NCBI GenBank assembly: GCA_950295325.1
Contig: OX485808.1
Location: 38,398,527-38,462,526, forward strand
Length of the DNA: 64,000 bases
From: Polytrichum commune
Taxonomy: Eukaryota > Streptophyta > Polytrichopsida > Polytrichales > Polytrichaceae
Direction: 5' to 3'
Positions 55,231 to 63,414 of the stretch are shown here, piece after piece. Position 1 is the first letter of the stretch. Each line of letters begins with the position of its first letter. The notes below the pieces were generated by a model. It did not search any database. It saw only the letters and a list, made by a program, of their open reading frames with translations, and was not told where the DNA came from. The translations under genes and the position numbers were made by a program.

Positions 55231-56384
55231 TGTTTCGAGAATGTGTCTCACCAATCAAAAATAAAGGTCTGGTTAAGAAAAGTAATTGATAACACCCACA
55301 TACCTTAAGTTAGATGAACAAGTTGCATGTCATCTTGGAAGGGTGCAAATAACAAAGACAAGTATTTAAGGAGTTTGGAATACACCAATCAATGCAATGC
55401 ATTAGAAAGACATTAGATTGCATGCTAAGGTTTGTTCATCATTCTAGACACACTAATCAACATTCTTGGGAAGACATAGTGTATGGTGATTCAATAACTC
55501 ATAGAATTTTGACTTTGTCAATGAATTTAAAGAGATTCATACAAGCTCCAAGGATTACAAGGAATATCGTAGCCGATTCTGGAGATATAGAAGCTGATGT
55601 GGCGAAGTCCCATTGGCTCTCCACTGGATGGTCCAAGACCATAGCGACCTACTGTGTTGCGACCTACCTAACTTGTTCCGACCTACTTACCTACCCTTTT
55701 CACTATGTGGGACTAGATTATTACACCAAATTGAATTATCATCATCCATATATGACCCACCTATGTGGATGAATACGACAAATCAACTTCTAAATGGATG
55801 AAACCACTACTACCCACCAATTTCAAATTTCAAAATGGAAATCCAACATGCCAATTGCCATTCAAACTTTGAAATTGAGACAATACGCTCCCAATGCACA
55901 GAGTAATTTGTATGGAACATGAGTTGTTTTTGTATTTCAAAGCTTGAATGTCGGTGATAACAATCGCCAAAGCACCAAGAGTTTCAATTGCAACATTAAT
56001 GTCTCCAATTGCCAGTACTTGAATGAATGAAACTATCCATATGCACCTACTATCCATTTCAATTATGGACTCAAGAATCCTACTAAGAAGACATTGTCTT
56101 GATGTCTTTGATAGACACTTCCGTGAGGCTTTTCCTCCACATCCGTCTGTAGTCTTCGTCATGTTGTCAAATGAAGTTTGTACCTCTTGCTCCAATGTGT
56201 GGCATCCACTAGTTACCGTAAAAGTTGCCTTCACACACATTCACTCATTTATTCGGATGCTGGAACAACATGCAAACATATTTGTACCTTAGTAATAAGT
56301 TAATACTGCAGCAATGGTCTCATCAAGTCAACCTTCTCGAAATTGCGGCTGAAATTATGTTGATTCTCCATCTAAGGTAGATAT
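55231..56384. other. Two unrecognised open frames, otherwise no feature
   Basis: A plus-strand frame at 55,392-55,772 (126 codons from ATG) and a minus-strand frame at 55,830-56,240 (136 codons) have no domain I know. The second contains a hydrophobic stretch around GALAIVITDI. Either could be an exon fragment. Evidence for real genes is weak. Confidence 0.25.
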
Positions 56385-56545
56385 GCATAAATTTGGACAC
56401 CTATATGTGAGTGTGGTTATGTGTGGATCTAAGAAAGTGTAGCATCAAAAAGACATGTGTCTAAAAGAGATTGAACTACGTGCACAAAATATGCCAACCA
56501 TTCACACCAAAAACACATTTAGCTTCAGAAATTATCAATCTAGGG
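56385..56545 (+). repeat. Copy of part of the 30.6-kb PPR-like relic
   Basis: Shares order with 30,600-30,730: GGACACCTAT, a GGTTATGTGTGGATC-like block, AAAAGACATGTGT, then ACTACGTGCACAAAATA and ACCATTC. Too decayed to translate. Confidence 0.5.
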
Positions 56546-56729
56546 TGCAATCTATATCCAAGAGGATGATCGAAAACAAAGTAAGGCAGGCACATGAACA
56601 ACCAGCTACAGATCATTGCATAAATTAATGCAGGCAGAGGAATTAGCTATAGATCAACCCATGCTCAAAGCTGCCAGCACAATTAATTCAATCGCATACC
56701 TGCACTGGGTTTGCACTAATCTTCTTGCA

Positions 56730-59700
56730 TTAATTCCCTGAACCATCACGTCCAGTTCGTTGGAATATATTCTCCAAAACTCTTGACAAAGAGATGGGAT
56801 CGCCTAAAACAATGTTGTAGTGGTGGTGAACTCCAGCATGGAACTGAATTCGACCAACATCAGCTTGCCTAGGGACATCAACTTGTTGCAATGCCACGGG
56901 ATTCAATACCGCAACTCCTTCACCAACTTGTTGGTTATTCCTCTCAGCATCTTGCATGACCTGATTAACATCATTAGTTTGTGCACATTGACCACTTGAA
57001 ACAGCTTGGACACACGGTAAATTTACAGCATCAACAGTAGTAGCCGGGATGTGATGACTGAAATCTTCTTTCTCAAAAGATGTCCATTCATAATTCCAGC
57101 ATTCTTTAACGTACTCTAACCACACAGCTTCCGGGGTAGATGTATTAGGTGTCACAACATGTGGTATGTTACCGCAACCTGTCCTGATGTTACCGGGATT
57201 TGCCTGACCAATAGATTGAACATGTTGATAAGGAGCCATAGGCCTCGGCGGAGGAGCAAAAACCCTATCACGATAGATATCGTTTGGTTTGTACACATGA
57301 TTAAAAGGCCTTGAAGGGGTATAAAATTGCCTCTGCAATGGAGCCGCTTGCGGTCTGTATATTGGAGGCGGCACATGAGGTCGGCAAGAAGCTACTGGAC
57401 GAAATGCATTGTGCACGTTACTTGGACGAAAGGCACTTGCATGGGGAATTGTAGTAGGAGGAACCTGGAATCTGACATGCGAAGTGGAATCAAATCTCCT
57501 AGTCTTTGTTGGTGGGAGAATAGAAGGATCGTCTAAATTTTGGCCACACTCTTGAACTTCAGGACAAACAACAATTTCATCATCATTTTCACTCGTATTA
57601 TGAACATCTTCCTCAAAAGCTTCAGAAACAAAATTTTGTTCCTCAACCTGGTCCGGTGCAGATCAGATCTGGATTCGGCCACCAAAACCTTGTTGGATGC
57701 CACTTCCATGAGAGGGAGGAAGTTCTGATGTACTATCCTCTGGCACATTTTCATGCGCATGGTAATGCTCCATTTGCCTGCGATAATGGTCTTCATATGT
57801 AAGAGGATTACCATCCTCATCGTAAGGTTCCCTACAAAGAGCTTGGGCAGCGTTTTGTTGCAATTGCAACGTTCTATCGTACCTTTCAAGAGTCTTTTCA
57901 TCACGATGACCAGTAACTGAAGCGATTGCTTTTCTAGGGACCATACCTGCTGACATGCGTGAAATTGCAGTCACTCTCCCTGATTTATTAGTAAAATCAC
58001 CAACTAGACCTACTGTCTTACACATCTGACGCATCCAGTTTCTCATAGCAGACTCACCAACATTGATGCCACTTCTGAACCAAATATTAGAGCGTGGATT
58101 GACAATTGCAGCAAGAAATAGATGACCATGCTTTGAGCTGCTTGGCATATGAGACAAAAGAGCTCGAAATGTGGCTACTACATCAGGATCGAAAGAAACT
58201 ACTGGCCTCCTGAAGTGTTCCTCTTAGAACCTGCTGAGTGTAACTTTGTGGTTCTTTGAAGTACGCTCATCGTACCTGCACAACATATCAAAATTGTTAA
58301 TATGTTCATACTCACACTACCGAAAATGTTTGAGACTCCGAGCAGGCCCGTAGACACCTAATTATTGAAGTTGTTAGTTATGCATCATTCTGAACCTCAA
58401 GACCAAAGGCCATTCAAATGAGAATAATATTATGCTCGTACTCAGAACTTTAGTGCACATATATAGATACAACAAAGGCACTTGTAGATTCTAAAAATTG
58501 ATGGATTCTGAAGAGAGGACACGTACTTCAAGAACTCACTTCAATTGTGAAGTCCTTGACCATTACCTTCCACAATTCAGTGTTACCTCTGATGAGGAAG
58601 ACAATAAAACAGTAAAAGGCCATTCTCTTGTGAATCCCATGAGCAGATGTAACCTGATGTAAAGGATGGGCCAAGATTAACTTCTCCTGCTCATAAGTTA
58701 GAGGATCGACTTTCCTCCGAGGTTTATTGGCCCCTAGATCCTTACTTTTGGTCATTGCCTTTTGTACGGCGCGACAAACACCAATAAACCACGGATGCCT
58801 CTGAATATTGAACTCAACCTCCTCATTCCCAGTCAGATTGATGCGAGTTTTCTGCTCTCTTAGAATTATGCGATTGAAGACATCAAGAGGTTTTTGATGG
58901 ACTCGGTTGGATACCTGTTGCCATCAACCTTGCAAACCATCAAAAAGAACTTGCTAAGAATCACACCAAGTTCCTGTAGTGGAATCTTTTCCACGGGGAT
59001 ATCAGTGGCGATATTCATGTGCCTACGCCAAGCATTAAATCTATTGATACACCACCTCTCGTTTCAGTAACTGTTCGATTCATCGCCATTTTGGACACTA
59101 TTGAAATCCTCTTGATCTAAATCCAAAAATTCCGAGGAAGATGGAACAATCGCATGTGCCACATGCACAACAAGGTCTTGTGAAGATCTATCTTGGAGTG
59201 GAAACTTACTAACATGCACTGGAACCTCCCCAAGATGCACAGAACTAGAGCTTGGATTGCCATCACTTCTTGTCCCATTTATGAAGGTAGCATTTACGGA
59301 TGCAGCAGTTGTGAGATTTGCACACACAGTAGTGTTCACAAACACTGGTGCATTCAAAACATTGGGAATAGTGTTGCTTCTCACAATGTTCGAATCAACA
59401 CCATCAACACGAACATCTGAGGATGGAGGTGCGTTAATACAAAGAGTTTGCACACTTGAAACAACATTATGGCTATCACTCAACAAAACGCCATCTGCAC
59501 CACAAGCAAACTGTGATGAATTCAACAAAGATGTTTCTAATGGAACATAGATCTCTTCGACACCGTGTGAATCACGATGCACAGGAGCTTGTCCTCGTCC
59601 TCGACCTCGACTGCGCCTTCCAGAACCACGAAACCTCGTGCCAGAACGTCCCTTTTTTCTACCCCTTGAAGCACCAACTTCTAACGGCCTCTCCAACTCA

Positions 59701-59777
59701 TCGTCATCACTAAACAACTTGAATGACGACATTGGCTGATGTTGCTCAACGTCACCATCCTCCTGATTACCTTCCAT
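56730..59777 (-). pseudogene. Crypton-like (DUF3504) tyrosine-recombinase gene, broken
   Basis: The start ATG is at 59,777. Segment 1 (about 240 residues) is disordered with an RG-rich, AT-hook-like patch (RGSGRRSRGRGRG). After a TGA (59,064-59,066) the same frame gives an N-terminal SAM-like domain (RWCINRFNAWRRHMN, LSKFFLMVCKVDGNRYP). A one-base frameshift near 58,885 follows, then VDPLTYEQEKL and FLIRGNTELWKV with the first catalytic Arg (58,588-58,590). A probable intron (donor GAA|GTGAGT at 58,540/58,539, acceptor TGTGCAG at about 58,276) does not join in phase. The next exon has TSKNHK, a TAA (58,224-58,226), then NKSGRVTAISRM, VTGHRDEKTLERYDR with the nucleophile Tyr at 57,879-57,881. 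A TGA at 57,663-57,665 precedes a proline-rich tail to 56,730. The box II His is Lys here. Family: the Crypton/DUF3504 recombinases also seen in KIAA1958- and ZMYM-type proteins. They cut and rejoin DNA via a phosphotyrosine. Confidence 0.75.
58276..58539 (-). other. Probable intron in the recombinase gene
   Basis: Bounded by GTGAGT and TGTTGTGCAG on the minus strand. The two exons do not join in phase with these exact borders, so a further lesion or a shifted acceptor is likely. Confidence 0.5.
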
Positions 59778-59961
59778 GACAGCGACAAGACTGGTAGACA
59801 ACAAAGACACAACTGACAAAACACAAAAAGTAAAAACTGAGAATAGAAGTGTTGGAGATAGCTCGACGTGACACTTTTGAAATTCCTACCTCCCGCCAAC
59901 AAGGAAGGTACCTAGTAGTACCTGGATAGGCAGGTAACTAATTTTGAGATCCTTCATCGGC
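59778..59961. other. Upstream flank of the recombinase gene
   Basis: No TATA box or repeat boundary recognised. Contains short GGTACCT/CTAGTAGTACC inverted motifs near 59,907-59,925. Confidence 0.4.
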
Positions 59962-60105
59962 TACATATGGTAGCAGGTCATCCAGAGGGGCCACCGGTTG
60001 TAGGAGGTGAACAGAACCTCCCTCGTTGCTGACGCGACTCGGCAGGTTCTGCTCCCCTGCTACACCCAGTAGCCCCTCTGTAGATGACCGCTACCTAGTA
60101 CATAG
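59962..60105. ncRNA. Long imperfect hairpin, pre-miRNA-like or fold-back element
   Basis: The left (from TACATATGGTAGCAGGTCAT) and right (ending GATGACCGCTACCTAGTACA, then TAG) arms of about 60 bases pair along their length with mismatches and small bulges; GAGGGGC / GCCCCTC and CAGAACCT / AGGTTCTG are perfectly paired blocks. The loop is about 20 bases (GTTGCTGACGCGAC). Size and shape fit a plant miRNA precursor, but a small fold-back transposon is equally possible. No mature sequence is assigned. Confidence 0.4.
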
Positions 60106-61806: not shown

Positions 61807-62121
61807 GAGCATCTTCAATCCATACACGCCAAATGGGCCCGGCATCCTATATGTCACGTCTGTCTTCTGGACTCGCAAGAACAGCGTCCCCAGTTCTGCG
61901 CATCGGGAGCCAACGCTGGCTCTTTACCCTAAACCCTAAATGTGCCACGTCAACCATCGGGCTGGCCACGTCAACCTTCTGTCTGTGCTCCAGGGGCTTC
62001 GACGCCGCTGCTCCAGGAAGGTGTCGCCGCTGCTCCAGGGACTTCGACGCCGCAGTGAACTCAGGATTCATCTGCTCCTCCGAAGTTCGAAGTGGTTGCA
62101 GATTATAGAGAACGCACATTC

Positions 62122-63414
62122 ATGGATCAATGGCGGGCTGAACTTGCAGGTGCTATTCAACAAGCTCTGGATGATTCCGATGACGAGCTCCAGGAGCATT
62201 TTCTTGCAGCAATCCACCAAGATTCAAGTGAATCTGATGAAGAGATGAGGCAGAGGCCAAGAAGAGGGAGCTGCATGGGGAGGGCGTTTGTGCACAGAGA
62301 CAGGGAGTTGTGGCATGAACACTTGGTTCGAGATTACTTTGCTCCTATTCCTGTTTTCGACAATGTCAAGTTCCGTCGTCGGTTCAGGATGCGCAGGGAT
62401 TTGTTTCTGAGGATTGTAGACTCCGTGACTGCTTTTGATTCATACTTTGTCCAAAAACGCGATGGCTTGGGGAGACTAGGATTGTCTTCTCTTCAAAAGT
62501 GCACAGCAGCTATTAGGATGCTAGCGTATGGTGTTGCTGCTGATGCAACCGATGAATATTGTCGTTTAGGAGAGAGTACTGCAACTGAAGCAATGCGTCG
62601 CTTTGTGAATGCCATTCGCCACTGCTTTGAGAGTGAATACCTTCGCATTCCCACAGAATCGGATCTTCAAACACAATTACAAATTAACACCCACAGAGGA
62701 TTCCCTGGCATGTTTGCTTCACTGGATTGCATGCATTGGCAGTGGAAGAACTGCCCCGTTGCATGGCAAGGGCAATTCCAAGACAAAGATAAGAAGCGCT
62801 CTGTGATTCTGGAGGCAATTGCAGATCAATCCCTATGGATTTGGCATTCTTTTTTTGGCCTTCCCGGAGGAAACAATGACATCAACGTATTGGATCGGTC
62901 TCCCATTGTGAGAGACATGCTCAGTGGTGACGGTCAACACTTGAACTTCACGGTGAATGGTAATGTTTACCCCCGTTATTACCTCCTCACGGATGGGATA
63001 TACCCCCCATGGTCTTGTTTTGTTCAAACGATCCATGAGGCTCAAGAAGAGAAGAAAAAACATTTTGCGAAGATGCAAGAAGGGGCAAGAAAGGACGTGG
63101 AGAGGGCATTCGGTGTCCTTCAGGCACGATGGGAGATCTTGCGCAACCCTTGTCGACAGTGGGACATTGAGGCTATGACCGACATCATTCAAGCATGTGT
63201 TATCATGCACAACATGATAATACAGGACGAGAGTGGTTTAGACTTGGAACCTTACTTTGATGTGGGACTCATGGGAGGCCGTATGGGTGGAGGATTGTCA
63301 TTCGTGGAGCTCCGGGAAGGGACTAGGGAAATAGAGAACGCAGACAGTCACTTCTCTTTGCGGAATGACTTGATCGAGCATTTGTGGCAAAAGAGAGGGG
63401 AATCTTACATGTGA
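62122..63414 (+). CDS. PIF/Harbinger transposase (DDE nuclease)
   Basis: 430 residues from the ATG at 62,122 (the ten codons upstream that remain open lack an ATG). An acidic N-terminus is followed by a helix-turn-helix-like region (FRRRFRMRRDLFLRIVD, then GLSSLQKCTAAIRMLAYG) and the DDE_4/HARBI1-like nuclease core: Asp202 in SLDCMHWQWKNCP, Asp253 in LPGGNNDINVLDRS, Asp291 in YYLLTDGIYPPW and Glu327 in RKDVERAFGVLQARW. All catalytic residues are present and there is no frameshift or stop. Length is normal for plant PIF transposases. It excises and reinserts the element at TTA/TAA sites, normally with a Myb-like partner protein. A CAATAAA polyadenylation-type signal lies near 63,457. The gene appears functional, so the element may be active. 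Confidence 0.95.
   Translation: MDQWRAELAGAIQQALDDSDDELQEHFLAAIHQDSSESDEEMRQRPRRGSCMGRAFVHRDRELWHEHLVRDYFAPIPVFDNVKFRRRFRMRRDLFLRIVDSVTAFDSYFVQKRDGLGRLGLSSLQKCTAAIRMLAYGVAADATDEYCRLGESTATEAMRRFVNAIRHCFESEYLRIPTESDLQTQLQINTHRGFPGMFASLDCMHWQWKNCPVAWQGQFQDKDKKRSVILEAIADQSLWIWHSFFGLPGGNNDINVLDRSPIVRDMLSGDGQHLNFTVNGNVYPRYYLLTDGIYPPWSCFVQTIHEAQEEKKKHFAKMQEGARKDVERAFGVLQARWEILRNPCRQWDIEAMTDIIQACVIMHNMIIQDESGLDLEPYFDVGLMGGRMGGGLSFVELREGTREIENADSHFSLRNDLIEHLWQKRGESYM

Follow-up and report, generated by a model that had tools for sequence, protein, structure and literature searches.

Crypton-like tyrosine recombinase transposons in a plant genome and their possible folded attachment site

We found that a 64,000-nucleotide stretch of Polytrichum commune DNA (the window) holds a decayed copy of a mobile element that encodes a tyrosine recombinase (YR) and carries a large hairpin at one end. 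This element and its relatives are very probably YR DNA transposons resident in the genome of a streptophyte, very probably a land plant. Both the YR family and the way it inserts are well established. We read the element as a Crypton-like YR DNA transposon and infer, at a probability of about 0.6, that it uses a folded attachment site. An earlier note on this DNA had given positions 56730-59777, which span the gene only; the whole element occupies 55569-60101, and its hairpin end, the most unusual feature, had been missed. The window copy belongs to family A of four families (A to D), and its features are as follows.

55569..60101, minus strand: whole element, a dead family A copy of 4533 bp, by comparison with copies L009, L011 and L012
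60095..60101, minus strand: left end, 7-nt spacer GTACTAG (GTAYTAG opens the left ends in A, C and D)
59970..60094, minus strand: terminal hairpin with arms L' and L (DNA fold -46.5 kcal/mol, z -9.8, matched by 0/200 shuffles)
59965..59969, minus strand: inner spacer of 5 nt, CATAT, from alignment
59956..59964, minus strand: arm R', GTAGCCGAT, the complement of the right end (9/9 pairs with R in A)
59777, minus strand: start ATG of the YR gene
58527..59777, minus strand: exon 1 region, with RG-rich N-terminus, core-binding domain and catalytic Arg
58588-58590, minus strand: codon of the catalytic Arg in FLIRGNTEL
58276..58526, minus strand: GT-AG intron, predicted from reading frames
56730..58275, minus strand: exon 2, with catalytic Lys, KxxR, GH, Tyr and proline-rich tail (Phage_integrase E 8.3e-4)
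58245-58256 region, minus strand: catalytic Lys motif TSKNHK
57984-57986 (Lys) and 57975-57977 (Arg), minus strand: TNKSGR box
57906-57911, minus strand: GH box
57879-57881, minus strand: codon of the nucleophile Tyr in ERYDR
56730, minus strand: end of the proline-rich tail
55569..55577, minus strand: right end with arm R, ATCGGCTAC, then the target G

The gene (minus strand, 56730-59777, one intron) carries its motifs in the order R..K..KxxR..GH..Y. The earlier note had proposed a minus-strand YR, and both the ordered motifs and the profile matches bear this out. Pfam Phage_integrase, a type of profile that the note had named as a check, matched the window catalytic frame at E 8.3e-4, under its curated cut-off; the PHROG integrase profile matched L009, a nearly identical copy, at E 1.2e-9 in its spliced core, and a profile built from six related sequences picked up 3nkh, an integrase of solved structure, at E 0.0014 (0.0086 for the best stretch). 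The RG-rich N-terminus, FLIRGNTEL, TSKNHK, GH, ERYDR and the proline-rich tail were all found at the places claimed. In the 3nkh alignment, GH..Y stands opposite GH..Y and KSGR opposite HILR, and because of the latter we read box II (TNKSGR) as K-x-x-R and not H-x-x-R, with Lys where most YRs have His. All catalytic boxes (R, K, K-x-x-R, H, Y) are present in order in families A and C. They are also visible in family D, yet D gave no Pfam recombinase match.

The kinship with Cryptons and DUF3504 proposed in the note stood in part. The YR is the sole recognisable enzyme, which is Crypton-like, and DUF3504 (PF12012) had no match in Pfam scans of the element frames. A genome-wide PF12012 search was also without a match and carries little weight, since the controls were unmatched there too. 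The sole hint of the ZMYM/QRICH1 group was a weak match to PF25561, the QRICH1/ZMYM N-terminal domain, at E 0.027-0.028 (E 0.028 in exon 1 of the window copy) and 15 bits vs a cut-off of 30.8. The best match to the NCBIfam integron-integrase models, from one of four proteins, had E 0.12 and 11.9 bits vs a cut-off of 220. No relatives were found in the viral contigs, prokaryote genomes and phages searched. The AlphaFold2 model of the single window frame failed, at a mean pLDDT of 41.8.

The window YR copy is a pseudogene. Exon 1 is disrupted by a stop (59064-59066), a frameshift (within 58866-58923) and a short deletion directly before the intron, and exon 2 by two in-frame stops (58224-58226 and 57663-57665). 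The exon 2 frame is open in L009 and L011. Just beyond the element, on the plus strand at 62059-63414, lies a 451-aa open frame that matches Pfam Plant_tran at E 9e-88 and encodes a transposase of the PIF/Harbinger type.

Relatives occur across the 408 Mb genome, nearly all of which is contained in seven contigs of 42-78 Mb. YR protein matches were located on C1, C2, C3, C4, C6 and C7, six of the seven large contigs, and C5 contained end-derivatives only. LEAFY domains lie on C1 and C7, which agrees with the plant nuclear setting assumed in the earlier note. Four further loci match the window catalytic frame at 97%. Two of them, separated by 32 kb on C7, agree at 99.96% and therefore represent a segmental duplication; the others are at C7:38.12 Mb and C6:44.09 Mb. 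Identity to the window family in the catalytic part is ~57% for B, 50-52% for C and 26-32% for D, and many decayed fragments exist besides. Family D is linked to A by genome searches (down to E 4e-23, N-terminal part) and by the catalytic boxes. The GT-AG intron, predicted from frames, has the same codon and phase in A, B and C; D is without it and has a different predicted intron instead. Family A elements measure 4533 (window), 5169 (L009), 5587 (L011) and 6224 bp (L012), and family D elements, at ~3.2 kb, are filled by the YR gene. The dN/dS ratio of exon 2 was 0.24 for L009/L011 in A and 0.21 to 2.28 for D pairs (one undefined), with too few changes in either family to rely on.

Several loci hold altered pieces of these elements. 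L039 (2262-3317) and L040 (2217-3188) carry the N-terminal piece of the A gene alone, without element ends; the two pieces are ~90% identical and break off at nearly the same exon 1 position. At L020:262-339 we found a 77-bp perfect-looking palindrome of two inverted A-type left ends, 9.2 kb from an A left-end fragment (L019:388 onward), a copy that breaks off after about 0.9 kb; both loci lie within C1:28.596-28.606 Mb. The DNA between them is bounded by inverted CACTA-like termini, as read by eye, and a CACTA-type element may have split the palindrome from the fragment. In family B, L013:8393-8765 contains two direct copies of a 160-bp stretch with GTAGGTAACC, which resembles the C left end; no hairpin was found there.

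Termini were fixed by copy comparison in A, in C (L014, L015) and in D (L034, L035, L037, L038). The proteins of these three families are ~26-55% identical, yet one end design is common to all. The left end reads GTAYTAG, then a hairpin (125 nt in A, 76 in C, 112 in D), a 5-nt spacer (CATAC in L009, L011, L012 and L019; CGGAC in C; CTGGC in D) and an inverted repeat of the right end, which itself terminates in ...TAC or ...AAC, then G. The second half of the hairpin is deleted in the D copy L035. Eight A- or C-type left ends, one of them the L020 palindrome, had z values of -6.7 to -15.3, and none of 200 shuffles was as stable in each case. D ends were folded without a shuffle comparison. Family B termini could not be fixed by comparison, and no hairpin was seen at its aligned left boundary; none was found in five older loci either. 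A generic search of the loci for the end design returned mostly chance matches and did not find the design in L036 or L051-L054.

When right ends were joined to left ends, the predicted fold paired R with R' and L' with L in all 14 junctions (four of A, two of C, three of D and five of D-derivatives; the arm of the window copy was taken one base too short). R:R' pairing was 9/9 within A, C and D and 3-7 of 9 across mixed families, and complementarity has therefore been kept while the sequence changed. L':L pairing was 9/9 in C and D and 6/9 in A, because arm L of A has a one-base bulge. For the same reason a strict test of the whole design missed both A elements; it found 4/6 real elements (C, D and one derivative of each) and none in 200,000 random trials, 2,778 of them with a stem. 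In the D junction most of the spacer bases pair with each other, so that the centre is not open and shows a bulge of only 2 nt. Within families, two pairs with double changes were found in A (with L019; reached in 63/500 shuffles), two in C (reached in 66/300) and none in D. Since these changes are few and often matched by shuffles, copying from arm to arm could keep the hairpins. The covariation evidence within families is thus weak, and the evidence between families carries more weight.

Three insertions have close empty sites, and each is exact, at a G already present in the empty site, with no base duplicated or lost. For L009, the empty site CTCTTT/GAGGGAC (L021, L022; the slash marks the insertion point) corresponds to CTCTTT/GTACTAG...GGCTAC/GAGGGAC (89-91% alike). 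For L037, TTTA/GTAATTT (L041) corresponds to CTTA/GTACTAG...TTTAAC/GTTATTT (94% alike), and for L048, GTAAT/GTCTGCA (L056) to GTAAT/GTACTAG...TTTAAC/GTCTGCA (95-96% alike), with L055 as a second empty site that has one nearby change. In two other cases the comparison is less clean. The window site exceeds its four distant empty relatives by 2-3 bp, and ATCAAC stands as a 6-bp direct repeat on either side of L035, together with 8-9 extra bases, unlike at the clean insertions. Among 15 insertions (four of A, two of C, four of D and five of D-derivatives; the segmental copy L010 and L019, which is without a right end, were omitted), position +1 is G in 14/15 and position -2 is A or T in 15/15.

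Small derivatives consist of the two ends only, both kept in 20/20 of those read for C and 5/5 for D. A search with the D left end returned the four D copies and five elements of 256-266 bp, made of 135-145 bp from the left and 115-120 bp from the right and 94-99% alike. The C left end gave 222 first-look candidates in the genome; the 40 that were scored, L015 included, match over nearly the whole end. The 20 C-derivatives read are 268-318 bp long with a mean pairwise identity of 0.96. This high likeness among derivatives makes recent movement likely, as judged from their sequences. In the C-derivative target tally (19 of the 20; L075 has an altered spacer and was omitted, though it too has G at +1), G stands at +1 in 19/19, T at -1 in 17, A at -2 in 18 and T at -3 in 16. 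No direct repeats of 3-8 bp were seen at the junctions of 20/20 C-derivatives. At L073:189-207 one C-derivative has inserted flush with a C-type element's right end, forming a natural R-GTATTAG junction; it was counted in the tally, its left flank being the right end of another element.

We propose that the element would exit as a circle whose junction has the order R, GTAYTAG, L', hairpin, L, 5-nt spacer, R'. As a single strand or a cruciform, this junction could fold into a long imperfect hairpin with unequal spacers between the arm pairs. The recombinase would recognise the folded junction, as IntI does folded attC, cut beside the step C/GTAYTAG and join the cut end to a chromosomal G after a TAT-like trinucleotide, which is similar to the element end TAC/G. 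If one strand is exchanged and replication completes the reaction, GTAYTAG would stay with the left end and the target would be recovered unchanged; this scheme predicts the features observed, namely a spacer on one end only, a restored target and a match needed at about the first base alone. In favour of this reading are the end design common to A, C and D, the stable hairpins, the arm pairing kept across families, the strict design test, the exact insertions at G, the derivatives that keep both ends and the flush insertion L073. Against it stand the largely paired spacers in D, the A elements missed by the strict test, the scarcity of double changes within families, the hairpins not found in B and in five older loci, the two less clean sites and the lack of a Pfam recombinase match in D. 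The main rival is an ordinary Crypton-type double-strand recombination, in which the junction would be a normal YR site and the hairpin an accessory with a binding, regulatory or replication role. It owes this standing to the A and C junctions, which resemble ordinary YR sites: the joined ends GGCTAC-GTACTAG-GTAGCG (A) and GGTTAC-GTATTAG-GTAACC (C) are inverted arms around 7 bp, and a YR site is usually built of inverted arms around a spacer of 6-8 bp, according to part of PMC3212892. However, R and L' are not inverted repeats in D, yet R:R' and L':L pair there; the entire hairpin is kept in derivatives; and the target agrees strongly with GTAYTAG at its first base alone. We consider the double-strand reaction unlikely, though a serious contender.

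The remaining explanations fare worse. The element might be what is left of a retroelement with a YR (DIRS, Ngaro or kin) after loss of the reverse transcriptase, and DIRS/Ngaro-type elements do use YRs; but no reverse transcriptase was recognised in the scanned frames, the YR gene occupies the whole ~3.2 kb of D, and an unsystematic look revealed no DIRS-type split direct repeats or internal complementary region. This origin is highly improbable. The lowest probability, close to negligible, goes to a domesticated host gene or contaminant DNA, both of which we rejected. The lone N-terminal pieces at L039 and L040 would suit domestication, but the copies are broken and have defined ends and empty sites. 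Contamination is unlikely because the genome has LEAFY and six of its seven large contigs carry YR relatives, the LEAFY-bearing C1 and C7 among them. Nor is the window copy a captured domain, a possibility raised in the earlier note; it is one dead member of a mobile family whose ends are defined and for which empty sites and small derivatives were found.

Recombination of folded single strands by a YR is known from bacterial integrons. If the folded-site reading holds, a eukaryotic YR acting on a folded site would mean that the mechanism arose or was acquired more than once, and YR DNA transposons would join the known land-plant elements. Small hairpin elements of this kind could then escape annotation, because they have neither a target duplication nor ordinary terminal repeats.

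Among known systems, Cryptons share with these elements a YR as the sole recognised enzyme (no reverse transcriptase in the scanned frames, where weak matches could escape), the lack of target duplication in clean cases, a presumed circular intermediate and small derivatives, the last as in some animal Crypton families (PMC3212892, in part). The same part of that paper reports Cryptons from fungi, animals, oomycetes and a diatom, with 4- or 6-bp direct repeats in fungal Cryptons and no terminal repeats in animal ones; part of PMC8969392 gives a short direct repeat as their sole structural mark. The moss elements differ in plant host, large hairpin end and inverted R/R' pair, the latter two standing where Cryptons have no long inverted repeats and, in fungi, short direct repeats. 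Part of PMC7385966 states that Arabidopsis thaliana had no described Crypton, and that of a plant-element review names Cryptons as a class and no plant family (PMC11630846). Our search of open-licence papers, without Repbase, found no published land-plant Crypton; an earlier description is possible. DIRS/Ngaro-type retroelements and ALOG domains are alike in having a eukaryotic YR; part of PMC3537659 traces plant ALOG regulators back to the DNA-binding domain of a DIRS1-type YR, and the retroelements differ in carrying a reverse transcriptase. Helitrons also have a terminal hairpin and no target duplication (parts of PMC8969392 and PMC7385966), but use another enzyme and insert between A and T, vs at G after a TAT-like trinucleotide here.

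Integrons offer a parallel for the ends. The moss junctions and attC are both imperfect palindromes whose structure is kept more than their sequence, with two arm pairs, unequal central spacers, a variable hairpin tip and insertion without duplication. The two arm pairs with unequal spacers stood in the predicted folds of 14/14 junctions, the spacers largely pairing in D. The attC R-box has AAC/GTT at the crossover, and the crossover arms here are of AAC/GTT type in D and TAC/GTA in A and C. Part of PMC8946536 describes attC as having little sequence conservation, an imperfect palindrome, an unpaired central spacer and a variable tip, with replication completing the one-strand exchange. The moss elements differ from integrons in encoding the enzyme inside the element, with no NCBIfam integron-integrase match above cut-off, and in insertions dispersed in the genome, vs one attI site. 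With about even odds, they may represent a eukaryotic equivalent of integron cassettes, with a YR acting on a folded site, one-strand exchange at TAT/G, and derivatives that are nearly the folded site alone, sometimes flush with another element, as at L073, like neighbours in a cassette array.
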